DNA from: Macrococcus sp. 19Msa1099
GTDB taxonomy: Bacteria > Bacillota > Bacilli > Staphylococcales > Staphylococcaceae
Direction of reading: 5' to 3'
Assembly: GCA_019357535.2 (NCBI GenBank)
Contig: CP079955.1
Coordinates: forward strand, 682,001 to 746,000
DNA: 64,000 nucleotides
Translations under genes and position numbers: made by a program
The notes under the pieces: generated by a model
Told to the model about the DNA's origin: nothing
Database searches by the model: none
What the model saw: only the letters and a program-made list of their open reading frames with translations
Shown: positions 4,491 through 21,417 of the stretch, piece by piece
How positions within the stretch are numbered: the stretch's first letter is position 1
How the letters are laid out: every line of letters starts with the position of its first letter

Positions 4491-5627
4491 TTAAGGCACT
4501 TCCGTCGAATCATAATTAATCACATTGTTATTAGAATAATCATTATAAGGATTAACGTATTGTGATTCAATAGATGGAGGTTCATCCGTCGAATCATAAT
4601 TAATCACATTGTCATTAGAATAATCATTATAAGGATTAATGTATTGTGATTCAATAGATGGAGGTTCATAGCCATCTTCCTCGATGGATAATTGGGGTAA
4701 GCCCAAGTTCTCTAGATACGTATTCTGTATGTGATGCTTTTCCTCTAGATTAGGAATAAAGTACCATAGGTTGTCGTTAAGAAATTGACCGTATCCTGTT
4801 AATTGAAATCTTTCGACCGTATTTAATGATTCTGAATAATTGCTGATTAAAGTCTTCAGGTCATCAAATGTCACATCTGTTACGACGTTTCCTTCTATCG
4901 TTTTTAATAATGAATCAATTTTAGATACAGAACTCATACTAATCAGTTTATCTGCCAGCGCCTGAATCACTAATTGCTGGCGTTCTTGCCTTCCGAAATC
5001 TCCGCCTGCGCCTACTTGCTTCCTGCTTCTAATGAAAGATAGTGCTTCTTTCCCATTAAGATGCGTCAGTTCACCTTGTACGAAATCATGACCTTCATAG
5101 CTGAAGGTTGCATTACTTACGACGTCGATTCCTCCGACTGTATCGATCATTTCTTCTATGCCATCCATATTGATCGTGGCGTAGTAGTCAATTGGGACAT
5201 TCATTAATTTTTCCACAGATTCTACTGCCATTTTAGCACCACCATGATTATATGCGCGATTAATTTTTTCGTGTGTATTATGCCCGGCTATTTCACTGTA
5301 TGTATCTCGCGGTATCGATACCATTACGCTTGTATTTTTCGTTGGATTGATACTTATGATGATGATTGTATCTGAGCGTCCTGCATCTCCTGTAGCGAGT
5401 CTTGTTGTATTAGAGTCAACTCCGAACAGTGCGATTGAAATAGCATCATGATCTTTGATTGATACTTGTTCCTTGCGTAGGTCGGACTTTTCTCGGCTGA
5501 TATTTGTATGGATTACTTTAGCAGTTTTCTCTACCTTTGTGTTTAATGTTTGATAAGCAACTGCTGCAGTTGCAAGTAATCCTATTAAGATGATGATGAG
5601 TGTGATTATCCATATTCTTTTCTTCAT
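4491..5627 (-). CDS. LytR-CpsA-Psr (LCP) family glycopolymer-peptidoglycan ligase
   Basis: A 378-residue membrane-anchored protein: a short basic N-terminus, one transmembrane helix at about 5-27, then an extracellular LCP domain. LCP landmarks are ALFGVDS, the arginine-containing RSDTIII and SIPRDTY segments, HEKINRAYNHGG and ALSFIRSRK. LCP enzymes transfer lipid-linked teichoic acid or capsule to peptidoglycan outside the membrane, which fits a gene set between two glycan loci. The C-terminus is unusual: an 84-bp direct repeat encodes two nearly identical 28-residue acidic, Tyr/Asn-rich units beginning EPPSIESQY. The gene is divergent from the wecC-like gene, with a 295-bp gap between. Confidence 0.9.
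   Translation of the reverse strand: MKKRIWIITLIIILIGLLATAAVAYQTLNTKVEKTAKVIHTNISREKSDLRKEQVSIKDHDAISIALFGVDSNTTRLATGDAGRSDTIIIISINPTKNTSVMVSIPRDTYSEIAGHNTHEKINRAYNHGGAKMAVESVEKLMNVPIDYYATINMDGIEEMIDTVGGIDVVSNATFSYEGHDFVQGELTHLNGKEALSFIRSRKQVGAGGDFGRQERQQLVIQALADKLISMSSVSKIDSLLKTIEGNVVTDVTFDDLKTLISNYSESLNTVERFQLTGYGQFLNDNLWYFIPNLEEKHHIQNTYLENLGLPQLSIEEDGYEPPSIESQYINPYNDYSNDNVINYDSTDEPPSIESQYVNPYNDYSNNNVINYDSTEVP
4502..4669 (-). repeat. 84-bp tandem duplication inside the LCP gene
   Basis: Two adjacent 84-base copies (4502-4585 and 4586-4669) differ at two positions that I can count. They are in frame and each encodes 28 residues at the C-terminus of the LCP protein. Near identity suggests recent duplication, and copy number could vary by recombination. 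Confidence 0.95.
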
Positions 5628-5922
5628 AAGTCGCTCCTGTCATGTTGGTGATATCTTGTAATATATTAACATAAAATTAAATTCGTTGATATTAAATTTT
5701 TTTCTTTTACATTATGTTTACAATCAACATATTATATTAAAAAAGTATATAAATGAGCTGTTTATTAACTCAATATTAATAATTTATAACCAGCGTAAAA
5801 CTACTATGAAGATTTGTTTAATTCTCACTTTTCCGTATTTTCTTAAGTTATACTACCCATGAAGTAGATAAAAAATATTACTTAATTAAATATGAGTTTT
5901 CTTGAGAAAAGGATGGATTCAT
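5628..5922. promoter_or_regulatory. divergent promoter region between LCP gene and wecC-like gene
   Basis: This 295-bp AT-rich gap holds no open frame I trust. For the rightward gene, a TATACT -10-like box at 5849-5854 lies 18 bases after a weak TCACTT. For the leftward gene, the minus strand carries an extended -10-like TGTTAATAT near 5665. Both assignments are tentative; I see no riboswitch-like or palindromic operator element. Confidence 0.4.
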
Positions 5923-7179
5923 TTGAAACTTACAACAATCGGTCTAGGGTACATCGGATTACCAACATCAATTATGTTTGCGAAACATGGGGTTGATGTT
6001 GTTGGGGTTGATATTAAACAAGAAGCTGTAGATAAATTAAATAACGGCCAGATTCATATAGAAGAACCTGGGTTACAAGAATCATTGGAGGAAGTGCTGG
6101 CCTCGGGTAAGTTCAAAGCTTCGACGACACCAGAGCAGGCAGATGCATATATCATTGCGGTACCGACACCAAATAACAGCGATGAACATAGATCATGTGA
6201 TATCTCGATCGTGATGTCTGGTGTTGAAAGTATCGTCCCATTACTTAAGAAGGGGGATATAGTAATCGTTGAGTCGACGATTGCACCGCGTACCATGGAT
6301 GACCATGTGAAGCCTTATCTCGAGTCTGAAGGATTTATAATTGGTGAAGATATCTATCTTGTCCATTGTCCGGAACGTGTATTGCCGGGCAAGATCATGC
6401 ATGAATTAGTATATAACAATCGCATTATCGGCGGAATCACCCCTGCTTGTGTTGAAGCGGGTAAGCGTGTATATGGGACCTTCGTTAAAGGTGAAATGAT
6501 TGAGACGCAGGCGAAGACCGCTGAGATGTCCAAATTAATGGAGAACACATATCGTGATGTAAATATCGCGCTAGCGAATGAACTCGCTAAAATCTGTAAC
6601 GATTTAGAGATCAATGTTAATGATGTGATTGAGATGGCAAATAAACATCCTCGAGTTAATTTACATAAACCAGGTCCTGGTGTCGGTGGTCACTGTTTAG
6701 CGGTCGATCCATATTTTATTATCGCGGAGGCCCCTGAGCAAGCGCTGTTAATCAAACTTGCACGTGACATCAATGTGTCTATGCCTGAATATGTTGTGCG
6801 CCGTACGAAGGACATCTTATCTAGGCTCGGCGGCAACAAAGTCACTGTATTTGGTTTGACGTATAAAGGGGATGTGGATGATATTCGTGAATCCCCTGCA
6901 TTTGATATTTATGAAATGTTAACTGCATCTCAATATGAAGTTGTCGCATATGATCCTCATGTGAAGCAGGAGTTTGTTGAGAAAGATATGGGAACAGCGG
7001 TTAAAGACAGCGATTTAGTATTGATATTGAGTGATCATTCTGAATTTAAGCAGCTCACTGATGGTGATTTTGATGGAATGAGAAATAAATATATTCTTGA
7101 TACTAAGAACGTTGTTAAGACTAAGGATGAATTTAAAGAAGTTAAATACTATAACTTCGGGAATTTATACAATTTATAA
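5923..7179 (+). CDS. wecC: UDP-N-acetyl-D-mannosamine dehydrogenase (WecC-type)
   Basis: A 418-residue UDP-sugar 6-dehydrogenase. The NAD motif GLGYIGLP is at the N-terminus, and the catalytic cysteine lies in GGHCLAVDPY near residue 256. Segments CPERVLPG, RVNLHKPGPGVGG and IHIEEPGLQ follow the WecC pattern rather than the UDP-glucose dehydrogenase pattern. It would oxidise UDP-ManNAc to UDP-ManNAcA with two NAD+, feeding an acidic wall glycan. I prefer the TTG at 5923, with AAAAGGATGG just upstream, over the TTG at 5902. No WecB/MnaA 2-epimerase is visible in the window, so its substrate must be made elsewhere. A small hairpin terminator separates it from the following transferase operon. 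Confidence 0.85.
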   Translation: MKLTTIGLGYIGLPTSIMFAKHGVDVVGVDIKQEAVDKLNNGQIHIEEPGLQESLEEVLASGKFKASTTPEQADAYIIAVPTPNNSDEHRSCDISIVMSGVESIVPLLKKGDIVIVESTIAPRTMDDHVKPYLESEGFIIGEDIYLVHCPERVLPGKIMHELVYNNRIIGGITPACVEAGKRVYGTFVKGEMIETQAKTAEMSKLMENTYRDVNIALANELAKICNDLEINVNDVIEMANKHPRVNLHKPGPGVGGHCLAVDPYFIIAEAPEQALLIKLARDINVSMPEYVVRRTKDILSRLGGNKVTVFGLTYKGDVDDIRESPAFDIYEMLTASQYEVVAYDPHVKQEFVEKDMGTAVKDSDLVLILSDHSEFKQLTDGDFDGMRNKYILDTKNVVKTKDEFKEVKYYNFGNLYNL

Positions 7180-7232: not shown

Positions 7233-8420
7233 ATGAAAAGCATATTGCTCATCTCACAAAATTTCTATCCTGAAATCGGATCTGCAGCAAACCGTATGAA
7301 AAATATATTCAATCATCTCGTGGATCATGGGTATGATGTCTATATCTTAACGACGCAGCCCTCTTACCCGAACGAGAAGATGTATAAAGATGAAAAATAC
7401 TGGAATGATGAACGGTTAAATAACGTAGCTGATAATAGGGTGATCCGACTAGCGATGCGTCATGAAAAACAAAAGAAAAGTATGTCATCAAGGCTTTATT
7501 ATTATATTGAATTTATGCTGAAAGTGCATTACTTCGTAAAGCATACGGAAAAATATTTCGATCTCATCTATGTTACAAGTCCTAATATATTTGCACCATG
7601 GGGGACATTATTTCTACAGCGTGACATCACTACAAACAAGACGATACTCGAAATTCGAGATTTATGGCCGGACAGTGTGTCTGCCCTCGATAAGATTAAT
7701 ATCGACGTATTTATGCCGATGTTAAGATTGATGGAAAAACGGATGTATAGAAATGCAAAGAAAATTGTAGTGAATAATATGTCGTTCATTCCACATATTC
7801 AGAAATATGTAAAAAATAAGGACTTTCTATTCCTGCCGAATGCGATTAACGATGAAGAACTTAACTTTCGACCGAAAAAAGCAACATTCAGCATCGTATA
7901 TACTGGAAATCTAGGCTTTGCACAGGATAACAAACAGCTGGAGGAGATCGCTGTAGCACTTAATAAGAATAAAATTCCATTTAATGCGATTGTCTATGGT
8001 ATACATGCCAATGACTTCAGACGATTTGTAGATGAACAGCAACTCGAATATGTTAACGTGTTTGAAACACTGCCAAAGTCTGAATGTCTTTCATTTACGA
8101 GTGAACACCATGTGGCACTCTCCATTCTTAAGCAATCTGAAGTATTTATGAACGTACTTCCCGGCAAGGTGATTGACGCGATATGCATGGAGGTGCCCGT
8201 TGTAACCAACTTAGGGGGCTTCACTCAAGCGCTGATACAGGATTATGAAGTGGGTATTAATATTGAATCCGCTTCAACTGAAAAACTGGTGGAAGCCATC
8301 TTAACATACAAAGATGATCCGTTCATGCTAAGGCGTCATACAGAGAACACAAAGAAAATTCGTTCTGAAGTTTTTAGATGGGAGACAAATATTCATAAAC
8401 TAATGGATTTTATCAGTTAA
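7233..8420 (+). CDS. GT4-family glycosyltransferase (WbuB-like)
   Basis: A 395-residue GT-B enzyme. The N-terminal SQNFYPEIGSAANR loop and the EIRDLWPDS motif are typical of GT4 transferases related to the N-acetylfucosamine transferase WbuB. The C-terminal half carries VYTGNLG and a VLPGKVIDAI donor-binding segment. It should add an amino- or deoxy-sugar to a lipid-linked intermediate in the cytoplasm. AAGGAG lies 7 bases before the ATG. It opens a tightly packed operon running to 18012 with the TagG/TagH-like transporter. Donor and acceptor are not predictable, and WbuB is only the closest family I recall. Confidence 0.85.
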   Translation: MKSILLISQNFYPEIGSAANRMKNIFNHLVDHGYDVYILTTQPSYPNEKMYKDEKYWNDERLNNVADNRVIRLAMRHEKQKKSMSSRLYYYIEFMLKVHYFVKHTEKYFDLIYVTSPNIFAPWGTLFLQRDITTNKTILEIRDLWPDSVSALDKINIDVFMPMLRLMEKRMYRNAKKIVVNNMSFIPHIQKYVKNKDFLFLPNAINDEELNFRPKKATFSIVYTGNLGFAQDNKQLEEIAVALNKNKIPFNAIVYGIHANDFRRFVDEQQLEYVNVFETLPKSECLSFTSEHHVALSILKQSEVFMNVLPGKVIDAICMEVPVVTNLGGFTQALIQDYEVGINIESASTEKLVEAILTYKDDPFMLRRHTENTKKIRSEVFRWETNIHKLMDFIS

Positions 8421-8442: not shown

Positions 8443-9249
8443 ATGAAAATTATTATCGAATTGTTAGAAGAGCAGATAAACAACTTAAATCTTATTTGGA
8501 AGTTATCACGCTATAATCTTAAAAGTGAATATTCGAATCATTACCTTGGGGCATTCTGGAATATATTACAACCTCTTATGCAGGTTGTTATTTATTACAT
8601 TGTCTTTGGGATGGGGTTAAGAGGGAATGCACATAACGGGGATATGAATTATTTGCTCCATCTGATTACAGGATTATTTCCATGGATCTTTATTTCCCAG
8701 GCAATTAACGCAGGTTCTAATACGATACATGCACAGTTAGGTCTAGTAACTAAGATGAAATTCCCTTCTTCTGTACTATTGTCTATTTCATATGTAATTA
8801 ACTTTATTAATTTGGTATTTACGACACTGATCATCTTTTTAATTTCATACTTTAATCACTTTGTATCGTTTGGTCATTACTTTGAATTTCTGTATTTCAT
8901 ATTTGCATCCTATATGCTGATCTTTGCATTTAATCTTATTATGAGTACATTGGTCATTCTTATCAGAGATACGAAGCAGATGCTACAGAACGTGCTGCGT
9001 ATGTGTTTCTTTGTCACACCAATATTCTGGGATGCAAATACGGTTTCACCTGTACTAAAGGTGATTACGATGCTCAATCCATTTGCTTATCTCATAGGAA
9101 TATATCGCAATGCATTCATTGAAGGAGAGGGGATGCTCTATGGGAATATCACAGATCATCTTTATTTCTGGACGTTTACACTATTATTGCTGTATATCGG
9201 CGGGCATATTCATTATCGATTCAAGAATCGTTTAGTAGATTATTTATAA
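8443..9249 (+). CDS. tagG: ABC-2 type polysaccharide/teichoic acid export permease (TagG/TarG-like)
   Basis: A 268-residue integral membrane protein with about six hydrophobic helices. Its N-terminal cytoplasmic segment reads LSRYNLKSEYSNHYLGAFWNIL, which matches the amphipathic interface helix of TagG-type ABC-2 permeases. Length matches the roughly 270 residues of staphylococcal TarG. With the TagH-like ATPase encoded at 13563 it would flip a completed lipid-linked glycan outward. Five genes separate permease and ATPase, which is unusual because they are commonly close together. The flanking genes are all glycan-related. The exported polymer could be a wall teichoic acid or a teichuronic-type acid. 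Confidence 0.85.
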   Translation: MKIIIELLEEQINNLNLIWKLSRYNLKSEYSNHYLGAFWNILQPLMQVVIYYIVFGMGLRGNAHNGDMNYLLHLITGLFPWIFISQAINAGSNTIHAQLGLVTKMKFPSSVLLSISYVINFINLVFTTLIIFLISYFNHFVSFGHYFEFLYFIFASYMLIFAFNLIMSTLVILIRDTKQMLQNVLRMCFFVTPIFWDANTVSPVLKVITMLNPFAYLIGIYRNAFIEGEGMLYGNITDHLYFWTFTLLLLYIGGHIHYRFKNRLVDYL

Positions 9250-9262
9250 ATTGAGGTGCAAA

Positions 9263-10396
9263 ATGAAATATTTGTTAATTACAAACGCTTACCCAAGTGA
9301 AGATAAGATTTATTCGAATGCATTCATCCATAGAAGAGTAAAAGCATACCAGCAGGCAGGTCTGGATATTGAAGTTGTCGTTATGACGACGAAAGTAAGA
9401 TTTGATGCTGTCTATGACGGGGTCACTGTAAAGTTTCTGGATGAATTCCAGCTCGCTGATTATGTCAATGGTCATCCGTTCCATAAGCTGCTGATTCATT
9501 TTATGAATCTGAAGATGTTCCAGGCATTAAAGATGATGCACACAGTACCTCCAGTAATTATATGGATGCATGGGTTTGAAGCCGAACCTTGGTTTTCAAG
9601 GTATTACAACTTCTTATCGAGCAAGCAGTCATTTTTAAATGTAATGGAAAGAAAAGATAGTTATTACGAAGAAGTTAAAGAGATGTTTCTTGCATTGATG
9701 GATAAGGATCTGTATGATGCGACGTTTATCTATGTCTCAAAAAGCTATAAAGAAAAATATGTCGATCCATATCTGGGTAAGGTACCTGATCAATATCATA
9801 TTATCCATAACCCGATTAATGAGTCCCTATTTCCGTATCGTCAGAAAAAACCGGAAGATAGATTTAACATTTGCAATATCAGACCTTATACAGCTAAGAA
9901 CTATGCGAACGATATTACAAGAGATGTCATTATCGGTTTAAGCAAGAAGAAATATTTTGATGAGCTGACTTTCGAACTGCATGGTGACGGACCTTTATTT
10001 GATGATATAACGAAACCGCTTCAAAAATTCAGTAATGTCAAATTAAATAAAGCATTTGTGCAACAACATGAGATTCATGAAATTCACGCAAGAAACGGCA
10101 TCTACCTTGGACCTACTAGACATGATTCGCAAGGTGTATCGCTGTGTGAAGCGATGAGTAGCGGCCTTGTGCCTATCTCCAATGATATCGGTGCGATTAA
10201 GGAATTTATATTAGACAAGGAAACAGGGCTTGTTGCAGATAGGGATGATGTTGCAGGAATGATCGAGCGTATCGATTTTCTGGTGAACCATCCTGATGTG
10301 TTTCTGCGTCTCAGCCACAATGCAGCGCAAGCGATAAGGCGACTGACTGGAGAAGAAATGATAACGAAAAAAGAACTTGAGGTGATTGAACGATGA
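9263..10396 (+). CDS. GT4-family glycosyltransferase
   Basis: A 377-residue GT-B fold enzyme opening with KYLLITNAYPSEDKIY, the usual GT4 beta-strand and loop. The C-terminal half contains LHGDGPLFDDI and GIYLGPTRHDSQGVSLCEAMSSG, where the S-L-C-E-A-M-S pattern is the GT4 donor-phosphate motif. It probably extends the lipid-linked glycan exported by the neighbouring transporter. The ATG at 9263 is preceded by GAGGTG and is better than the TTG at 9251. The stop codon overlaps the next start by four bases, showing translational coupling with a small unknown protein. Sugar specificity is unknown. Confidence 0.82.
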   Translation: MKYLLITNAYPSEDKIYSNAFIHRRVKAYQQAGLDIEVVVMTTKVRFDAVYDGVTVKFLDEFQLADYVNGHPFHKLLIHFMNLKMFQALKMMHTVPPVIIWMHGFEAEPWFSRYYNFLSSKQSFLNVMERKDSYYEEVKEMFLALMDKDLYDATFIYVSKSYKEKYVDPYLGKVPDQYHIIHNPINESLFPYRQKKPEDRFNICNIRPYTAKNYANDITRDVIIGLSKKKYFDELTFELHGDGPLFDDITKPLQKFSNVKLNKAFVQQHEIHEIHARNGIYLGPTRHDSQGVSLCEAMSSGLVPISNDIGAIKEFILDKETGLVADRDDVAGMIERIDFLVNHPDVFLRLSHNAAQAIRRLTGEEMITKKELEVIER

Positions 10397-10752
10397 CAAA
10401 TGAAGTGAACTGGGAAGCGGCATATAATGATTTAAAGTCTCAGATTGAATTTATGATGGAAGATACGAGACAGTTACTGGTAGATAATCCTGTCAAACTA
10501 AAGATCAATAAGATTGTCGTAGATAAAGATGAGACGTTCTCTTCATTAATTGTCGACGCTTCTGGTGATACGATGATGTATGCATGCTATCTCTATCATC
10601 AAAGGTCAAAGAAAGAGCTGGTCAAGACGAAGTATCAGTATAGCAACACGTTCGTATTTCAACTACCGAAAGGGAAGTACTTTGCACGTCTCTTCGTAAA
10701 AAATCGCATGACGGGTCAGAAAGAAATCGATACGATTTCATTTACTGTGTAA
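10393..10752 (+). CDS. uncharacterised 119-aa protein of the glycan operon
   Basis: I do not recognise this family. The 119 residues begin with a helical acidic segment (about 1-35), then alternating hydrophobic residues suggest a small beta-sandwich (about 38-119, for example SSLIVDASG and FVFQLPKGKYFARLFV). There is no signal peptide, membrane helix or cysteine motif. It overlaps the preceding GT4 gene by four bases and is followed after 10 bases by a coiled-coil protein gene. Position between transferases suggests a structural or substrate-guiding partner of the glycan machinery, but that is inference only. Confidence 0.7.
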   Translation: MTNEVNWEAAYNDLKSQIEFMMEDTRQLLVDNPVKLKINKIVVDKDETFSSLIVDASGDTMMYACYLYHQRSKKELVKTKYQYSNTFVFQLPKGKYFARLFVKNRMTGQKEIDTISFTV

Positions 10753-10762
10753 GGAGGATATT

Positions 10763-11401
10763 ATGACTTACGAACTGATTACGCGCTATCCTGAAGCAAC
10801 GACAACACTCAAATTAAGTGCAGGAATTGATACAAGTATATTGAATCATATCACTCAGCAAGTAGATGATATCGATATATTACTGTCTGAAAGTCTTCCT
10901 GTTGAAGAAGGTACAAGAGACCTCGGAGATTTAGTGCATGCAACTCATGCTAAGAGATTAACGTTGCGCATTCCTGTCTCCTTGTTTGATACATGTAAAG
11001 ACAGTATCAACATTGAATATGAATTAGCAGAGATAGGTAATAATGCTGATTATGTGTTCATTACATATAATTTAAAAAATAGAACGTTATCATCTATCAA
11101 TAGCAGCAACATGATCAAATGGTATCAAATTCAGCAGTATGAAAGCATGGAAGCGTATATAGAGGGAACGGTGAACCGCACGATATATAAAGAGATGAAA
11201 CAGTACCGAAGTCAACTTGGATGGGCAAATGCCAAGATTGAACGTTACGAATCGAAGGTTCAGGCGGGGATTCGTGAAGATGAAGCGGCGAAATATAATG
11301 AGTTAATGAATAAGTATAAAGAAACTTTAAAACGATTAAATAATCTGCGTAATTCAAGACTCGGTAAATTACAGATTAAATATTGGGATTTAAAAGGATA
11401 G
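10763..11401 (+). CDS. uncharacterised 212-aa coiled-coil protein of the glycan operon
   Basis: Family not recognised. Residues 1-110 look like a compact mixed alpha/beta domain without catalytic motifs I know. Residues about 140-200 are a charged heptad-like coiled coil, ending in NSRLGKLQIKYWDLK. Basic aromatic tails of this type occur at the ends of several wall-glycan transferases and may touch the membrane. AAGGAGG precedes the ATG (10752-10758). The next gene starts at the base after the stop codon. It could be a scaffold for the large partner proteins encoded downstream; function is open. Confidence 0.7.
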   Translation: MTYELITRYPEATTTLKLSAGIDTSILNHITQQVDDIDILLSESLPVEEGTRDLGDLVHATHAKRLTLRIPVSLFDTCKDSINIEYELAEIGNNADYVFITYNLKNRTLSSINSSNMIKWYQIQQYESMEAYIEGTVNRTIYKEMKQYRSQLGWANAKIERYESKVQAGIREDEAAKYNELMNKYKETLKRLNNLRNSRLGKLQIKYWDLKG

Positions 11402-13591
11402 GTGAAGAGATTGAACTATCAGCATGATGCAAAGCTAAGATATGATGATCTGATACGTGTACGAAAGAAAATCGGTACGATAATGGAAGGGCTGACGATC
11501 ATTACTGAAGCACTGGACTATGGTCACATACAATCACACTTATCCTATATTGTTATCCCTCAGGATAAGACGGTATATGATGAACTTATTCGCAATCATC
11601 AATACGACAATGTATTGGTATTATCACCTGCGAAACAACTTGATATTAAAGAAGTTCTGAAATATGTACGCACTTCACATCTAATGTTTGTGAAAGATAT
11701 TAAAGATCTTATATGTTCTGATGAACCTGTACATTTCAGGTCGAATCATATCTATATTGCGCAACGCGTTATGAATAGCGAGTTGAACCATGTACTGAAA
11801 GATGAAGAGACAAAAGAAGATGAAGAGATAGCGCTTGCACAGATCGATACGGAAAAGGAAACGTCTAAAGTAGTTCATCCTAATGTCGTAAAGATTCATG
11901 TCGATATTGAAGCTCTAAACGACTATGAACTACAGGACGGTGCTGTAGAATACCCTATGAATCATCTGCTTACTAAGCTCTATGAGTTTTACGGGATTAT
12001 CATACCTAAACAATTTCTAGAGACCCATCGTTTGAAAGCGTCAATTACCGATAACCGTTTCGAAGCTATCACGGAAATGATATGTCATCATGCGTTTGTG
12101 ATTACACCGTTTGCTGACATTCAGTATGTTCCTGAAGTGCGCAACCTTCTACACACTAAAGACTTAGAGACGATGCCTTCTTTAAATTATCTTAACGAAG
12201 TCGCACTGTATCGTAATACTACGAGTGTCAATTCATTTATTCAGCATGTGGCGGATATCTTGTTACTCAGAATTGGTAATAAGATTGATAAAGGTGAAAC
12301 AAAGCTTGAGACAGAACTGGATAAACTGAAAGCATTTAAAACGATCAACCTTGAAATTCTGAATAAAGGGCGTGCAGAGGAGTTGGTCATCGCTTACTGC
12401 TTCCCGCCATACAATGATACTTCTGGCAATGTCATGGCAAAGCGTATCTATATGGAAGGGAATAAAGTAGATATTATCTCAAATAATATGGATAGGATCC
12501 GTAAGAAGGATTATTCGTTGGAAGGCATTGCAAAAGGGCTGATCGATACAAAGTTTATCGTTGATGCCAAACAGGCATTCAGCAGCTATGAAAGTATCGA
12601 AACGTTTACTCATCTAGGCATGGAGATATTCAGCACATTCAAAGATAAATATAATAAACTATATAGCCGTGCAATGTTCCCGGCGTCCCATTTCCTGGCG
12701 TATGAGATTAAACTGAGTAAACCTGAGATATACTGGCGCGCAGAATTCTCTGATCCGTTATTAACAGATGTGAAATCTGAGAATAGGTTCTCCCCGATTA
12801 AGTCTAATGAATACATTGAACATTTAAGAGAGACGCTACCTGAAGCCTATCAGGCGTTAGTCGATGATAATGTATTTAATGTGTGCGAGATATTACCATT
12901 TGCCTATGCCGATGAGCTCATATTTACAAATAGGCTGCAGCTCGAATACATTATCAGACGCTTTGACAGTGAGCTTCAGGCATCGATTCGTAAACGTGCA
13001 GTCATTTCAGCACATCCGACGTTGCCGCAGCCATTCTATCATATGGCGCAGGCGCACTATGAATATGATGAGACACAGCTCAACTTTGCATACTTCGGTA
13101 ATTTCTATGATACCCGCGGATTCAGAGAGCTCGAGTTAATGTGTAAATACCTGATTTTAGATGGCATCACGAACTTCAAGGTTAATGTTTTCACAAATAT
13201 AAATGCGAAGACGAATGGATTCTATAATAACAGCGATTTTAAAGATTACATTAGATTGAATCCCTACTTAGATTACTTTGAGTTCTTAAATTTAACTGAG
13301 CAGATGGATATTCTGATGATTTATGATGCGCATACGAAAGGGATCAAGGATGTTAATCCGTACCTGCCATCTAAGCTCAGCGATTATCTCGGAAGTACAG
13401 CTTACACACTGGCATTCATCGAAGAAGGCAGTATATTATCTGAACAAGTGGATGAAAAGCTGTACAAAGTAGATATGAACCATTTTTCTGCATATGGAGC
13501 AACTGTTCGAGAAATAAACAAACACCTTGATAAAGCGTTGACACTGAAAGAGGAGGTGTCTTATGGAAACAGTGAAAGTAAAGGTCGATAA
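11402..13591 (+). CDS. large 729-aa protein with C-terminal GT-B-like module, paralogue of the 706-aa protein
   Basis: The C-terminal 390 residues resemble a GT4-type GT-B domain and clearly match the C-terminal half of the protein at 15892-18012. Shared motifs in order are YCF.PYNDTSG, ISNNM, PASH, AEFSDP, ADE..FTN, HPTL, FGNFY.TRG, YFEFLN, DAHTKGIK and NPYLPSKLSDY. The N-terminal 340 residues have no GT2 signature, unlike the paralogue, and include a low-complexity acidic stretch near 130-155. It starts GTG directly after the previous stop, and its end overlaps the TagH-like gene by 29 bases. Probably a glycan-assembly transferase acting with the ABC exporter; substrate unknown. Confidence 0.72.
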   Translation: MKRLNYQHDAKLRYDDLIRVRKKIGTIMEGLTIITEALDYGHIQSHLSYIVIPQDKTVYDELIRNHQYDNVLVLSPAKQLDIKEVLKYVRTSHLMFVKDIKDLICSDEPVHFRSNHIYIAQRVMNSELNHVLKDEETKEDEEIALAQIDTEKETSKVVHPNVVKIHVDIEALNDYELQDGAVEYPMNHLLTKLYEFYGIIIPKQFLETHRLKASITDNRFEAITEMICHHAFVITPFADIQYVPEVRNLLHTKDLETMPSLNYLNEVALYRNTTSVNSFIQHVADILLLRIGNKIDKGETKLETELDKLKAFKTINLEILNKGRAEELVIAYCFPPYNDTSGNVMAKRIYMEGNKVDIISNNMDRIRKKDYSLEGIAKGLIDTKFIVDAKQAFSSYESIETFTHLGMEIFSTFKDKYNKLYSRAMFPASHFLAYEIKLSKPEIYWRAEFSDPLLTDVKSENRFSPIKSNEYIEHLRETLPEAYQALVDDNVFNVCEILPFAYADELIFTNRLQLEYIIRRFDSELQASIRKRAVISAHPTLPQPFYHMAQAHYEYDETQLNFAYFGNFYDTRGFRELELMCKYLILDGITNFKVNVFTNINAKTNGFYNNSDFKDYIRLNPYLDYFEFLNLTEQMDILMIYDAHTKGIKDVNPYLPSKLSDYLGSTAYTLAFIEEGSILSEQVDEKLYKVDMNHFSAYGATVREINKHLDKALTLKEEVSYGNSESKGR

Positions 13592-14516
13592 CGTATCTAA
13601 AGTATATCCGGTCAATCAGAGTAAAAGTCAGAAAATACTGGATATCCTTAAGTTCTGGCAGCATAAGACACATGACGATGTGTATTATGCGCTGAAAGAT
13701 ATCAGCTTCGAAGTGAATGCTGGGGACAGTGTTGGACTTGTCGGATTAAATGGTGCCGGTAAATCAACGCTCTCAAACCTCTTGGGAGAAGTCATCTCAC
13801 CTACTGCAGGGACGATTGAAATAAACGGCCGAAGCTCACTGATCGCTATATCTGCAGGATTAAATAATGAATTATCAGGGGAAGAGAATATCCGTATGAA
13901 ATGTCTGATGCATGGTCTGACTGAAGCACAGATTAATGACCACTTTAATGATATCATCGACTTCTCTGAACTCGGAGACTTCATTAAGAAGCCGATTAAG
14001 ACGTATTCCAGCGGGATGAAATCACGCCTTGGTTTTGCGATTGCTGTCCATACAGATCCAGACGTACTCATTGTGGATGAGGCGCTGTCTGTAGGGGATG
14101 ACACATTCTCTAATAAATGTATCGAACGGATGAAAGAGTTTCAAGAAGAAGGGAAGACCATCTTCTTTGTCAGTCATTCTATCGGTCAGATACAGAAGAT
14201 GTGCAATAAAGCGATATGGATTCATTATGGCAAAATTGAAGCGCAAGGAGACTGTATTCCGACGGTCGGTTTATATGGCAGGTTTATTAGAAAATACAAT
14301 CAGTTTGATAAGGAACAGCAGCTTGCATATAAAGAAGGACAGCTTCAAAATCAGATAGGCTCGATTAACGACATAGAAGTAAATAAAGAAAATGTATCTA
14401 AAAATACATTATTCGGTCTGATCGGTGTTACAGCATTATTTATATTCAGTATGCTGTCTCAATTAAATGTCATACCACTATCACATTATCTAAATATGTT
14501 AAAAGGGATGTTTTAA
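13563..14516 (+). CDS. tagH: ABC transporter ATPase for glycan export (TagH/TarH-like) with C-terminal membrane helix
   Basis: Residues 1-230 form a standard ABC ATPase: Walker A GLNGAGKST near 60, signature YSSGMKSRLGF near 147, Walker B VLIVDEAL near 168 and the switch VSHS near 202. This is the TagH/TarH subgroup that powers teichoic acid export with TagG. The protein is 317 residues, longer than staphylococcal TarH (about 264), because of a linker and a hydrophobic segment at about 282-304 that would cross the membrane. Bacillus TagH also has a C-terminal extension, but a much longer one. GAGGAGG precedes the ATG inside the upstream gene, so translation is coupled. Confidence 0.88.
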   Translation: METVKVKVDNVSKVYPVNQSKSQKILDILKFWQHKTHDDVYYALKDISFEVNAGDSVGLVGLNGAGKSTLSNLLGEVISPTAGTIEINGRSSLIAISAGLNNELSGEENIRMKCLMHGLTEAQINDHFNDIIDFSELGDFIKKPIKTYSSGMKSRLGFAIAVHTDPDVLIVDEALSVGDDTFSNKCIERMKEFQEEGKTIFFVSHSIGQIQKMCNKAIWIHYGKIEAQGDCIPTVGLYGRFIRKYNQFDKEQQLAYKEGQLQNQIGSINDIEVNKENVSKNTLFGLIGVTALFIFSMLSQLNVIPLSHYLNMLKGMF

Positions 14517-14518
14517 CC

Positions 14519-15688
14519 GTGAAAAAGGTGACCATGTTTGTCTGGAACAACTTTACTAATGACGCAAGGGTGACAAGAGAAGCGAAGACACTTCAGTCTG
14601 ATTATGATGTCACTGTCATCGCTAAACGTGAAAATAATGAACGTCATATCCCGCTTAAACAAAGTTATAAGGAAGGATATAATGCTGTACGCAAACATAA
14701 GACAGAACTACCGAAATTTATAGCGGATCACATTTATAATAACAAATTAAAGACCATACTTTTAAAGCACATGCCGAATGCTTTCTTGATGATGAAGATG
14801 ATCCAGGAAGGCTACAGGCAAGATGCAGATATTTATCACAGCCATGATCTGAATACGTTAATTCAAGGGATTGCCTGTGCAAAATTGAGAACAGATAAAC
14901 GTATACTAATATTTGATGCTCATGAAGTGAACACTAGCCGTACAAACTATAAGGTAGGTCTAGTCGGGACAATAGAAAAGTTTCTTATTCGATTTACGGA
15001 TCGTACAATAGTAGAGAATGAGACACGTGCAACCTATCATGAGTTACTCTATGGATATCGACCGATGTCGCTCTATAACTACTCGGAATACTATGATATA
15101 GAGGAAGTTGAAGCGGTAGACCTTCCTCTTAAGTATGATAAGACATTTATTTATCAAGGCGGGCTACAGGAAGGACGTGGTTTAGAACGACTGCTTCGTG
15201 CGTTCTGGCAGGCGGATATCCCTGCAAATCTACTGATGGTGGGGGACGGAAAGATTCGTCCTCAGCTTGAAGCATTAACGCGCACACTCAACTTACAGGA
15301 CAAGGTGACCTTTACCGGTCGTGTTCCTTATGAGTCGTTACGTTCGTATACAAAGATTGCATATGCAGGATTTCAGATTCTGGAAAATGTGAATTTCAAT
15401 CATTATTCTGCATCGAGCAATAAACTTTATGAGTATATGATGGCCCATATTCCTGTGATCGCCACAGATCTTCCTGAAATAAAAAGGGTGGTGGAAAAAG
15501 AAGGGATAGGGCTAATCATAAAGCATGATTCAGAAGAAGAACTTACAGCAGCTATTCGTAAGATGTTTGAAGATGAAGCGATGAGAAATGCGATGAAAGA
15601 ACGAATGAAAGTTAGTAAAGAACAGTATAACTGGGAGAAGGAAAAGCAGAAACTTCTAAATTTATATCATGACCTTGAGGTGAGCTGA
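14519..15688 (+). CDS. GT4-family glycosyltransferase
   Basis: A 389-residue GT-B protein. N-terminal strand KKVTMFVWNNFTNDARV and HSHDLNTLI are followed by IFDAHEVN. The C-terminal domain has FIYQGGLQEGRGLERLL, LLMVGDG and VTFTGRVPYESL, then a donor-binding SSNKLYEYMMAHIPVIATDLPE region. It is therefore a retaining transferase of the GT4 class, working on the same lipid-linked polymer as its operon partners. GTG at 14519 follows the TagH-like stop by two bases. The stop codon overlaps the start of a tiny coiled-coil gene by one base. Sugar identity unknown. Confidence 0.85.
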   Translation: MKKVTMFVWNNFTNDARVTREAKTLQSDYDVTVIAKRENNERHIPLKQSYKEGYNAVRKHKTELPKFIADHIYNNKLKTILLKHMPNAFLMMKMIQEGYRQDADIYHSHDLNTLIQGIACAKLRTDKRILIFDAHEVNTSRTNYKVGLVGTIEKFLIRFTDRTIVENETRATYHELLYGYRPMSLYNYSEYYDIEEVEAVDLPLKYDKTFIYQGGLQEGRGLERLLRAFWQADIPANLLMVGDGKIRPQLEALTRTLNLQDKVTFTGRVPYESLRSYTKIAYAGFQILENVNFNHYSASSNKLYEYMMAHIPVIATDLPEIKRVVEKEGIGLIIKHDSEEELTAAIRKMFEDEAMRNAMKERMKVSKEQYNWEKEKQKLLNLYHDLEVS

Positions 15689-15891
15689 TGACAGAGCAAG
15701 AGAAGAAGTTACTTGTGGAGAGTTTAAATAATGAAAGATATGCCTTAAACCAGCTTAAATATAAGGACATGGAAATCGCACTGTTAAAGAAGAAGCTCAG
15801 TCTATATGAACATAGATGGCATAAACTAATGAATCTCCTACCTGTGAAAGTATTACGCTATGCACTACGCTATGTAAAGGGGCTGAAGTAA
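15688..15891 (+). CDS. small 67-aa coiled-coil, basic-tailed protein
   Basis: Residues 1-40 are a charged coiled coil (EQEKKLLVESLNNERYALNQ and onward) and residues 42-67 a basic amphipathic segment with Trp and repeated Arg/Lys. The arrangement echoes the coiled-coil tail of the 212-aa protein upstream. The ATG overlaps the previous stop by one base, and the next gene begins at the base after its stop, so it is embedded in the operon and very likely translated. I know no family. It may tether glycan enzymes to each other or to the membrane. Confidence 0.65.
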   Translation: MTEQEKKLLVESLNNERYALNQLKYKDMEIALLKKKLSLYEHRWHKLMNLLPVKVLRYALRYVKGLK

Positions 15892-18012
15892 ATGCGTATA
15901 AGAAAGAGAATTCAGGAGATCGATCAATTACTATCAAAAATTGAACGTAACGAACCTTTATATATTGAAGATACAGTAGAAGAAAGCGTCCAGCCAATAA
16001 AGAATAAAGGAATATCTGTTATCGTCCCATTATATAAAAGCCGAAAGTATTTACATCAATTGATAGAAAATATTAACACCTTCAGAACAACGACGTTTGA
16101 AGTGATCTTTGTGTTGAATGGAGATAAAGACTCTGTCGAAGAAGACAGAGAGACCTTAAATTCACTTACAAAAGAATTCACGTATCACATCATTGAATCA
16201 GGTCATGGCGCATCGATTGCACGCAATAAAGGAATTGAAATTGCTCAATATTCTCATACGCTCTTCCTGGATGCAGATGATACACTTCATCCACACACAT
16301 TATTTGAGCTAAGTAAGCATCTCGATTTCGCTAATATTTCTGTATTTCATCTCTATAATGTTCATAATGAAGAGATTGAACAGGATAATATCATAGAAAA
16401 AGAAAAGAACCAGCTTAAAGGACAACTGACATCTGACTATATGAAACTGACTAAAATATTATCCATGAACGGCGCGAAGCTGATTCCGACACATTACTTA
16501 AAGACCATAAGGTTTGATGAAACACTGACATCAGGAGAAGATGTCGTACTGATGACGCACATCATAGCACGCTTCAGACCGCTCATCAACGTCATTGACA
16601 GTACAGCATGTGTCTATTATAGACATTTGACCGAGCACTCGGTAAGCAGGCAGTCGATGAGCTATGCATTTAACGTTACAGATAGAATCAGTGTTATACA
16701 GGCACTCGCACAGTTACTCGACACGGAAGACGATATATCAATAAGGCAGTTCATCATGAACCGCATGGATGCTCAGGCAGGATTTATCAATAGATATCTG
16801 CACCATGATGTGACAGCTTATCAGCAGGTGATCCAGGATTTACAGCGCATACATGCTGAATACCTCCCGTATCAAACGGTAAACAAAGGACTCGCACAGA
16901 CACTATACATCGGATATTGCTTTGCACCGTATAATGATACAAGCGGTGTTATCCTCGGAAAGCGCATCGCCGAACGTAAAGTACCAGCTGATGTAATCTC
17001 CAATAATATGAGCGATGTGAGAACAACGGATTACACATTAAACGAACTATCAGACCCATATATCGCGAAACATTATGGCATTAACAGTAAATCCTCATTC
17101 AGTAACTATCAGCTGATGAATGTATTCGTGCAGCAAGGCACTAAGAAGTTAAGAAACAATACATATAAAGAAATCTATTCCAGAGTACTATGGCCGGCCA
17201 GTCATCTATTAGCATGGAAACTAAAGACAAATAATACAAAATGGATCGCAGAGTTCTCTGACCCTGTGCTGTACGATATTAAGAACAAAGAGCGACACAG
17301 TAAAGTACCCTTTACCTATGTCAATAGAATAAAAAGACAGGCACCAGCAGAATATCATCCATACATCGATAATAACCTGTATAATCTCGTAGAACTGCTC
17401 CCCTTTATATTTGCAGATGAAATCGTATTTACAAACAATAAACAGAGAACGCAGATGATAAAAAGGTTTACGGAAGACATACAGCAGTCAATTATCAAGA
17501 AATCCGTCATCAGACCACATCCAACACTATGTGCACATTACTATGAGAAGCAACGTGCACTGATCACAGTCGATAAAGCAACGTTCAATATCGGTTATTT
17601 CGGTAATTTCTATGAAACGCGCGGCCTTAAAGAAATTCAGGAACTGATAGATCATCCAGAACTTATTGAAGCACTTAATCTATCTAACTTACCATTAGCA
17701 TTTCATATCTTTACAAGCAGTCCTGCGAGTGTCAGACAGATGGTCAGTCTCTATGAAATGACTCAAGTAAATGTACATGAAGCATTACCATACTTTGAAT
17801 TTCTAAATGCGACGAAGCAATTCGATGCGCTTATTGTTATGGATGCACACACGAAGGGGATTAAAGAAGAGAATCCATATTTGCCGAGTAAGTTAAGTGA
17901 TTATAAGGGAAGCGGTGTTCCTGTAATTGCTTACTGTGAAAAGGGAAGTCCGATGGATGAGATGGAATCGATTCAAGGGATTAAGATTAGAATTAAAGAA
18001 GATGATGTGTAA
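15892..18012 (+). CDS. bifunctional-looking 706-aa glycosyltransferase (GT2 domain plus GT-B-like module)
   Basis: Residues about 35-280 form a GT2 domain: GISVIVPLYKSRKYL, VLNGDKD, and the metal site LDADDT near 127. Residues about 335-706 match the C-terminal module of the 729-aa protein, with YCFAPYNDTSG, ISNNM, WPASH, AEFSDP, HPTL, FGNFYETRG, DAHTKGIK and NPYLPSKLSDY. It thus appears to carry two transferase folds, which could add two sugars in turn. It is the last gene of the operon; a terminator hairpin begins inside its final codons. Codon use matches its neighbours. Activity of the second module is inferred only from fold-like motifs. Confidence 0.78.
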   Translation: MRIRKRIQEIDQLLSKIERNEPLYIEDTVEESVQPIKNKGISVIVPLYKSRKYLHQLIENINTFRTTTFEVIFVLNGDKDSVEEDRETLNSLTKEFTYHIIESGHGASIARNKGIEIAQYSHTLFLDADDTLHPHTLFELSKHLDFANISVFHLYNVHNEEIEQDNIIEKEKNQLKGQLTSDYMKLTKILSMNGAKLIPTHYLKTIRFDETLTSGEDVVLMTHIIARFRPLINVIDSTACVYYRHLTEHSVSRQSMSYAFNVTDRISVIQALAQLLDTEDDISIRQFIMNRMDAQAGFINRYLHHDVTAYQQVIQDLQRIHAEYLPYQTVNKGLAQTLYIGYCFAPYNDTSGVILGKRIAERKVPADVISNNMSDVRTTDYTLNELSDPYIAKHYGINSKSSFSNYQLMNVFVQQGTKKLRNNTYKEIYSRVLWPASHLLAWKLKTNNTKWIAEFSDPVLYDIKNKERHSKVPFTYVNRIKRQAPAEYHPYIDNNLYNLVELLPFIFADEIVFTNNKQRTQMIKRFTEDIQQSIIKKSVIRPHPTLCAHYYEKQRALITVDKATFNIGYFGNFYETRGLKEIQELIDHPELIEALNLSNLPLAFHIFTSSPASVRQMVSLYEMTQVNVHEALPYFEFLNATKQFDALIVMDAHTKGIKEENPYLPSKLSDYKGSGVPVIAYCEKGSPMDEMESIQGIKIRIKEDDV

Positions 18013-19605: not shown

Positions 19606-21417
19606 ATGACTGCTAAAAAAAGGTTAATGTTCTTAATATTTTTAGATTCAATCATCGTTTCACTTTCTGTCTTTTTCTGCTATTCAATTATCTTTCCGTT
19701 CTTTGAAGGTGATCAACTCAATGATTTAATAGTATATTCAGTAATCCTTCTTCTAAGTCATCATTTATTTGCATACATATTCAATCTGTATCATCGTGCG
19801 TGGGAATATGCGAGTATTAATGAACTGATGGCAATCGTAAAAGGGGTTACGGCAAGTATCTTATTAACTTCAGTTCTAGCATTTATCATCAATGGCCAAG
19901 TCTTCATCCGATTAATATTTATTACCTGGATGATGCACCTCATATTAATTGGTGGATCAAGAATAAGCTGGCGCGTATTAAGACGATACATCCTTGATAA
20001 AGATATCGAATTAATTCCAACCCTGGTTGTAGGTGCAGGCCGCGGAGGAAACCTATTGATTCATCAGATGTTAACAACGCCTACAATGGGAATGAAACCT
20101 GTAGTAGCTGTCGATGATGATGTGAACAAGAAGAATATTGAATTAACAGATGGAATCAAAGTGAGAGGCACAACCTCAGATATACATAGTTTAGTAACTA
20201 AATACGATATCAAACGTATCGTAATTGCTATTCCTAGTCTGGATAAGCAAAAGTTAAATGATATACATAAAGCTGCAACTGAAACGGGGTCAGAAGTTTT
20301 AATTATGCCGAATATCGATGATGTTATGGCAGGTAAACTTGAAGTTTCACAGCTTAAGAAAGTAGAAGTAGAAGATTTGTTGGGTCGTGATCCTATTGAA
20401 CTTGATGATCAAGGGATTTCCGAACAAATAGAAGGTAAGACGATACTTGTTACAGGTGCTGGAGGATCCATCGGTTCAGAGTTGTGTCGTCAAATTGTAA
20501 GATACAAGCCGAGACGTCTTGTATTACTAGGGCATGGAGAGAATTCAATATACTTAATTAATGAAGAGTTAAACAATAAGCTGCTGGGTAGTGTTGAAAT
20601 TATTCCTCTTATAGCAGATGTTCAAGACCGTGAGCGTATGTTTGAACAGATGTTGAAATATAAACCAGATATTGTGTATCACGCGGCTGCTCATAAACAT
20701 GTACCATTAATGGAATATAATCCAACAGAAGCTGTGAAGAATAATATCATTGGAACTAAAAATACTGCTGAAGCTGCTTTAAATGCAGAAGTGAGTAGAT
20801 TTGTGCTTGTATCTACAGATAAAGCTGTAAATCCTCCGAATGTGATGGGGGCAACAAAACGCGTCGCTGAGATGGTTATTCAAGCATTGGATAAAGAGAG
20901 TACTACAACAAGGTTTGTTGCTGTGCGTTTCGGTAATGTATTAGGATCTAGAGGATCTGTGATACCTAAATTTAAGCAGCAAATTGAAGCAGGTGGACCT
21001 GTAACGGTAACTCATCCAGATATGACACGTTACTTCATGACGATACCAGAAGCATCTAGATTAGTCATTCAAGCAGGAGCACTTGCAAAAGGTGGCGAAA
21101 TATTTGTCCTTGATATGGGTGAGCCCGTTAAAATTGTAGATCTAGCTAAAAATATGATTCGTCTTTGTGGCTTTGAAGAGGATGAGATTCCGATAGAATT
21201 TACTGGAATCAGACCTGGAGAGAAGATGTATGAAGAATTATTAAATGAGAATGAAATACATCCTGAACAAATATATGAAAAAATATATATAGGAAAAGTA
21301 GAAGATTCTCCCTTAGATAAATTAAATTTATTGATAAATAATCTACAAAATAGTTCAGAAATAAAAAAAGATTTATTGGGATTCATAAATAATAATAGAG
21401 GTGGAAAAAATGAATAA
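19606..21417 (+). CDS. capD: membrane UDP-GlcNAc 4,6-dehydratase (CapD/PglF-type)
   Basis: A 603-residue protein with four N-terminal membrane helices (about 1-110), a first nucleotide-binding-like domain, and a catalytic SDR domain with TGAGGSIGSE near 282. YHAAAHKHVP and STDKAVNPPNVMGATKR follow; the MGATK sequence replaces the usual YxxxK, as in PglF, FlaA1 and WbpM. It should convert UDP-GlcNAc to UDP-4-keto-6-deoxy-GlcNAc at the membrane. Size matches CapD/PglF (about 590-610). The last 50 codons become markedly more AT-rich than the body of the gene, like the cassette that follows. The next gene overlaps by 8 bases. Confidence 0.9.
   Translation: MTAKKRLMFLIFLDSIIVSLSVFFCYSIIFPFFEGDQLNDLIVYSVILLLSHHLFAYIFNLYHRAWEYASINELMAIVKGVTASILLTSVLAFIINGQVFIRLIFITWMMHLILIGGSRISWRVLRRYILDKDIELIPTLVVGAGRGGNLLIHQMLTTPTMGMKPVVAVDDDVNKKNIELTDGIKVRGTTSDIHSLVTKYDIKRIVIAIPSLDKQKLNDIHKAATETGSEVLIMPNIDDVMAGKLEVSQLKKVEVEDLLGRDPIELDDQGISEQIEGKTILVTGAGGSIGSELCRQIVRYKPRRLVLLGHGENSIYLINEELNNKLLGSVEIIPLIADVQDRERMFEQMLKYKPDIVYHAAAHKHVPLMEYNPTEAVKNNIIGTKNTAEAALNAEVSRFVLVSTDKAVNPPNVMGATKRVAEMVIQALDKESTTTRFVAVRFGNVLGSRGSVIPKFKQQIEAGGPVTVTHPDMTRYFMTIPEASRLVIQAGALAKGGEIFVLDMGEPVKIVDLAKNMIRLCGFEEDEIPIEFTGIRPGEKMYEELLNENEIHPEQIYEKIYIGKVEDSPLDKLNLLINNLQNSSEIKKDLLGFINNNRGGKNE

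Follow-up and report, generated by a model that had tools for sequence, protein, structure and literature searches.

We have analysed a 64,000-nucleotide stretch of DNA from Macrococcus sp. 19Msa1099 (contig CP079955.1, positions 682,001 to 746,000; the whole stretch is called the window below), and in particular two genes on its forward strand, P0001 (11402-13591) and P0002 (15892-18012). The genome is one of Macrococcoides and has a size of 2.36 Mb, and the nearest named record over the region of interest is M. caseolyticum DSM 20597 (98%). An earlier note, made from the letters alone, had described the two products, of 729 and 706 amino acids (aa), as giant paralogues with a common glycosyltransferase-like module at their C-termini. 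The reading frames exist as described there; the proteins are, however, not giant. We will show that the module is widespread and is accompanied by genes for UDP-N-acetylmannosaminuronic acid (UDP-ManNAcA), and we will argue that it may well be the part of a wall-polymer polymerase that uses this sugar.

The module occupies about residues 318-691 of P0001 (12353-13474) and residues 334-706 of P0002 (16891-18009), as judged from the alignment, the structural models and a table of motifs. P0001 residues 318-681 can be aligned with P0002 residues 328-690 over 369 residues with 39% identity (E=1e-88), and the motifs FGNFY, DAHTKGIK and NPYLPSKLSDY follow in the same order in both, as had been claimed. 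By sequence, the window copies have no match in Pfam, NCBIfam or the solved structures, and they do not rise above the cut-offs of the Pfam families of CAZy GT4 (PF00534 and PF13692). A profile of 52 modules found nothing among the PDB sequences up to E=10, GumK included. Pfam Glycos_transf_1 (PF00534) is matched weakly by 16 of these 52 relatives, with a best E of 1.1e-5, WcaI-type models are touched by a few, and none of the 52 matches the Pfam family of GT26 (WecG/TagA), even when E values up to 1 are allowed.

AlphaFold models of both proteins are confident over the module, the P0002 model having a pLDDT of 92. The C-terminal half of P0002 is closest to SPS (sucrose-phosphate synthase), MshA, HepE, BshA and GumK (Z 19-23, VIA-align), and the P0001 module has the same GT-B neighbours (Z 20-24.6); for the two models, the matches to GT-B structures extend over about 290-340 residues with Z 19-24.6. 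On the basis of these models the module is predicted to have the GT-B fold, in line with the GT4-like character previously noticed. The E-x7-E site of GT4, said to be lacking in the two proteins, is missing in all 52 relatives: within NPYLPSKLSDY, its first Glu has become Pro and its second Asp, each in 52/52. The residues D451, R572, D636, D642, P653, S657, K658, D661 and Y662 (P0001 numbering) are likewise invariant in the 52, as is the Asp of the AEFSDP motif. Since the signature is replaced by invariant Pro and Asp while the structural matches are to GT-B enzymes, the module is of GT-B type and distantly GT4-like, but it is no member of GT4 by signature. It also stands apart from GT70 by sequence and from GT26 by Pfam. 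The module is undescribed in the sense that no curated library names it, and it is a divergent GT-B family inside an already known sort of polymerase.

We now turn to the N-terminal halves. P0002 carries a GT2 domain (residues 38-334, 16003-16893; Pfam PF00535, 4.8e-16, residues 42-152), in which the NG, DxDD and GED catalytic motifs are all present and whose GT-A fold in the AlphaFold model is closest to TarS, TarP, RmlT and K4CP (Z 20-24). P0002 has thus two transferase domains that are intact by both motif and fold, which P0001 does not. The N-terminus of P0001 (residues 1-313, 11402-12340), taken alone, gives no significant Pfam match; matches to RelA/SpoT, YaaA and the like, with E between 0.01 and 0.1, were rejected as chance. 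When 19 P0001-type N-termini were compared by hhalign with 30 GT2 N-termini, the two profiles aligned end to end over 266 columns (probability 94.9%, E=4.3e-8), whereas a control of the P0001-type profile against the unrelated module gave E=0.63. The models also agree in outline, in that the two N-terminal halves end in a corresponding succession of strands and helices; the P0001 half is the less confident one (pLDDT 40-85).

The catalytic positions are not preserved in this domain. N76, G77, D127, D129, D130 and D217 are present in 30/30 GT2-type rows; P0001 has Pro/Gln for N76/G77, Lys/Ile/Lys for D127/D129/D130 and Asn/Arg/Phe for G215/E216/D217. Among 18 P0001 orthologues the GT2 residues are lost in nearly all, with many different replacements, and D127 is kept in about half. 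Apart from the closest orthologues, these N-terminal halves are 8-22% identical to each other, a strong divergence that is expected for a domain without catalysis. As far as its sequence tells, the P0001 N-terminus is a decayed and catalytically dead GT2 domain. The earlier note was therefore right about a real GT2 domain in P0002, but the P0001 half that it called unrecognised is not of different origin. In a tree of 92 modules, the P0001-type proteins form one clade (100/100) nested among proteins with GT2 and module. Their sister group (100/96) consists of Jeotgalicoccus and Lacicoccus proteins with an intact GT2 and a length of about 850 aa. The simplest reading is that a bifunctional ancestor was duplicated and that one copy lost its GT2 function.

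The genes around P0001 and P0002 are as follows. On the forward strand, there is first a UDP-ManNAc dehydrogenase of WecC type (5902-7179; NCBIfam PRK11064, 1.1e-125, 419.5 of 459 bits and thus below the equivalog cut-off), which likely makes the candidate donor UDP-ManNAcA. It is followed by a WcaI-like glycosyltransferase (7233-8420, from the Pfam/NCBIfam scans), a TagG-like ABC permease (8443-9249; PF01061, 2.8e-12), a GT4 enzyme (9251-10396; PF13692, 3.9e-11, and PF00534, 4.6e-11) and two small proteins without family match, of 119 aa (10393-10752) and 212 aa (10763-11401). The former adjoins P0001-type genes in Staphylococcaceae loci and the latter in Macrococcus, Salinicoccus and Jeotgalicoccus. 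Loci of Staphylococcus type retain the 119-aa gene and have, in the second place, a 237-aa gene with no detectable similarity. Downstream of P0001 come a TagH-like ABC ATPase (13563-14516; PRK13545, 7e-101, and PRK13546, 7.9e-83, both below cut-off) and a second GT4 enzyme (14519-15688; PF00534, 3.8e-21). The order P0001, TagH, GT4, P0002 is thus as previously given, but a gap of 203 bases separates this GT4 gene from P0002, which makes a single operon of the four plausible at most.

On the reverse strand, at 4491-5627, lies a TagU-like ligase of the LCP family (TIGR00350, 6e-46, over cut-off), a candidate for attaching the polymer to the wall, and an MnaA-like epimerase is encoded elsewhere in the same genome. 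A second pair of TagG-like and TagH-like genes is found about 10 kb upstream, near TarB-like and LCP genes (genome positions 672001-691000, overlapping the window). Because of this second pair, the cluster of P0001 and P0002 likely serves an exported wall polymer additional to ordinary teichoic acid. A capsule-type cluster starts directly after P0002 (18180-30988). Besides CapA-, CapB- and CapD-like genes, it encodes an aminotransferase (22709), an ATP-grasp protein (25037) and, at 21401, a TviB-like UDP-GlcNAc dehydrogenase.

When 84,980 species genomes were scanned, the module turned up at 74 loci, which belong to Bacillota, Actinomycetota, Pseudomonadota and methanogenic archaea. Some of the modules carry a fused GT2, others a dead version of it, and others again occur on their own. 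This spread does not agree with the idea of a subfamily specialized for one polymer. Within the groups sampled the module is uncommon, being found in 18 of 108 Staphylococcaceae genomes, 3 of 299 Bacillota genomes (the present one counted), 14 of 245 Micrococcaceae and 4 of 140 Pasteurellaceae genomes. Copies are also present on Rossellomorea and Paracoccus plasmids, where the stand-alone ones are annotated as 'hypothetical protein'. In 5,426 E. coli genomes there was no match to the module or whole-gene DNA of Aeromonas and Pasteurellaceae, a search that reaches only to about 65-70% identity, such that a K-type with the module is possible. No M. luteus could be identified among the 14 module-bearing Micrococcaceae genomes; M. 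luteus has a GC content of about 73%, and one candidate was rejected as its 62% (sampled at a 6-kb contig end) does not fit. In phages the module is essentially absent, P0002 matching there mostly through its GT2 half; one putative viral contig in IMG/VR encodes a module with 37% identity.

The neighbourhoods of the module were compared in 24 genomes that were picked because they carry it, most genera being represented by a single genome. Of the 30 module genes, 22 have a WecC relative within 20 kb (with a score of at least 228 bits, a cut-off chosen after the list was seen), compared to 11 among the 150 GT4 genes that scored best (Fisher p=7e-14); for a distance of 10 kb the counts are 17/30 and 8/150 (p=2e-10). 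Both WecB and WecC are encoded beside the module in Paracoccus, Bacillaceae, Pasteurellaceae, Aeromonas, Halomonas and Methanosphaera. In Paracoccus, stand-alone modules directly adjoin wecB-wecC, and in two Pasteurellaceae genomes, including A. minor, wecB, wecC and the polymerase gene are next to capsule export genes. In Methanobrevibacter and Methanosphaera the module has no fused GT2, and in the latter it immediately follows homologues of wecB and wecC and a single GT2-like gene. The TagG/TagH neighbours that the earlier note had proposed to survey are indeed there in Bacillaceae, together with wecB/wecC and sometimes LCP genes, but it is the UDP-ManNAcA pathway, and not TagG/TagH, that constantly accompanies the module. 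Two individual loci may be mentioned here: one in Cellulomonadaceae holds three module copies in a span of about 10 kb, with a single wecC among them and a single wecB nearby, and one in Pasteurellaceae has the polymerase gene interrupted inside the module near a contig end, with intact wecB and wecC homologues alongside.

On balance we lean towards the following reading. The module is a divergent GT-B transferase with UDP-ManNAcA as its likely donor, P0002 is a bifunctional polymerase and P0001 a paralogue with a single activity and a dead GT2, the product being a teichuronic-acid-like polymer. MnaA and the WecC-type enzyme would provide UDP-ManNAcA, and the GT4 enzymes would start the chain. 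In P0002 the GT2 half, with perhaps GlcNAc or Glc as its sugar, would then act in alternation with the module, which would add ManNAcA, giving an acidic polymer on a lipid carrier that TagG/TagH would export and the LCP ligase attach to the wall. With its GT2 dead and its module intact, P0001 would add only the sugar of the module, either in a priming or early step or as a second or extra acidic residue, and the dead domain may be kept as a scaffold for the acceptor or a partner. The module, and not GT2, is taken as the user of ManNAcA because modules lacking GT2 adjoin wecB-wecC in Paracoccus and because P0001-type proteins keep the module alone.

It is important to point out that several observations speak against this. 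In the literature consulted, no activity is known for any enzyme of the module family, and gene neighbourhood does not distinguish between the module and its GT2 partner as users of ManNAcA. The Lys conserved in PSKL is present also in glycosyltransferases without uronic acid donors. Moreover, a GT4-like ancestry suggests a retaining mechanism, while the formation of beta-ManNAcA from UDP-alpha-ManNAcA requires inversion. There is no local WecC in Gottfriedia, for one Paeniglutamicibacter copy and in Methanobrevibacter, the last on short contigs, and the dehydrogenase found near the module in Micromonosporaceae and some Ornithinimicrobiaceae shares no more than 32-40% identity with that of the window and may make another uronic acid.

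The question of mechanism leads to the opposite assignment, in which the GT2 half transfers ManNAcA and the module a neutral partner (Glc, GlcNAc or similar) with retention, like its GT4 cousins. The nearest GT-B folds are indeed retaining GT4/GT5 enzymes, the weak Glycos_transf_1 matches of 16/52 modules point the same way, and in M. luteus teichuronic acid Glc is alpha and ManNAcA beta (PMC3005890), which would suit a retaining GT-B and an inverting GT2. However, modules with no fused GT2 still adjoin wecB-wecC, P0001-type proteins retain the module and lose GT2, the GT2 of P0002 is nearest to TarS and TarP, which use UDP-GlcNAc, and the E-x7-E usual in retaining GT4 enzymes is absent; we thus find this assignment unlikely. 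The Staphylococcus loci, which have P0001-type genes without any of P0002 type, keep it open nonetheless: three such clusters (L021, 4446-7028; L026, 2252-4777; L058, 4421-6988) hold a DUF3880-like protein of about 850 aa, which in L021 ends in a live GT2 that possibly substitutes for the lost function. A donor that varies from locus to locus among uronic and amino sugars, ManNAcA being merely the commonest acidic sugar in such clusters, would account for the distant actinobacterial dehydrogenases and for the copies without a local one. It is harder to reconcile with the high-scoring UDP-ManNAc dehydrogenases that lie near the module in an archaeon and three bacterial phyla, far more often than near GT4 genes, and with active-site residues invariant in 52/52, and we regard it as doubtful.

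Another option considered was that P0001 has no catalytic function at all and serves P0002 as a regulator or scaffold. Its GT2 half is dead and evolves fast, and P0001 is always in an operon with small proteins of no known function; but every invariant residue of the module is retained, and a partner of P0002 type is lacking in the Staphylococcus loci, which makes this scenario improbable. In the other direction, it is tempting to extend the favoured assignment, albeit only tentatively, since we would expect the following to be wrong rather than right. The modules would form a new family at the level of CAZy, made up of inverting GT-B transferases for ManNAcA and apart from GT26 and GT4, and the fusions of GT2 and module would be the long-missing ManNAcA polymerases of teichuronic-acid type in Gram-positive walls, Gram-negative capsules and on methanogen surfaces, P0001 being a duplicated polymerase that shed one activity.

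If ManNAcA is the donor, a single marker module would flag the synthesis of ManNAcA polymers in four phyla, in genes that are now annotated 'glycosyltransferase' or 'hypothetical protein', and genes could be given to a wall polymer that has for decades been known from the biochemistry of Micrococcus. P0001 and P0002, side by side and with the same module behind a dead and a live GT2, are a clean experiment of nature on what a polymerase requires.

Finally, these proteins can be compared with known systems. Among enzymes of GT-B fold, the GT70 beta-glucuronosyltransferase GumK (PDB 2hy7, 3cv3) resembles the module in structure (Z 19-21), and a uronic-acid donor is proposed for the module too, but the two are only about 8-10% identical and have no match by sequence. 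In GumK the conserved Lys307 contacts the donor carboxylate, and the Arg-Lys pair of GT4 is absent (PMC12768416). Candidate counterparts in the module are K658 of P0001 (K667 of P0002) for this Lys and D451 (D457 of P0002) for the catalytic Asp157 of GumK. The module shares the GT-B fold with GT4/Glycos_transf_1 enzymes as well, and its R572, in FGNFYxTRG, may match their phosphate-binding Lys, whereas the first Arg of the pair is not conserved. S. aureus CapI is a ManNAcA transferase in capsule synthesis (PMC6441080) and uses the donor here proposed for the module; unlike P0001 and P0002, it is a separate membrane-bound enzyme acting on a lipid-linked capsule precursor. A link to the capsules of Mannheimia and of H. 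influenzae d and e was also sought, but the literature consulted assigns no polymerase to them. TagF-like and two-domain capsule polymerases offer the same plan as that proposed for P0002, namely two transferase domains in one chain, an alternating polymer and export by an ABC transporter. In the Gram-negative Cps3D/Cps7D type, with two transferase domains per chain and separate transition transferases for priming (PMC11666461), the domains are two GT-B ones (CgoT and CgaT), while P0002 pairs a GT-A GT2 with a GT-B module. A likeness in product class is offered by the teichuronic acid [ManNAcA-Glc]n of M. luteus, made by a complex of glucosyltransferase and ManNAcA transferase (PMC3005890). 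On purification that enzyme (TUAS) gave two proteins, of 54 and 52.5 kDa, whose genes are not named in that paper; by means of two activities in one complex it forms an alternating Glc/ManNAcA wall polymer, which is the class of product proposed here.

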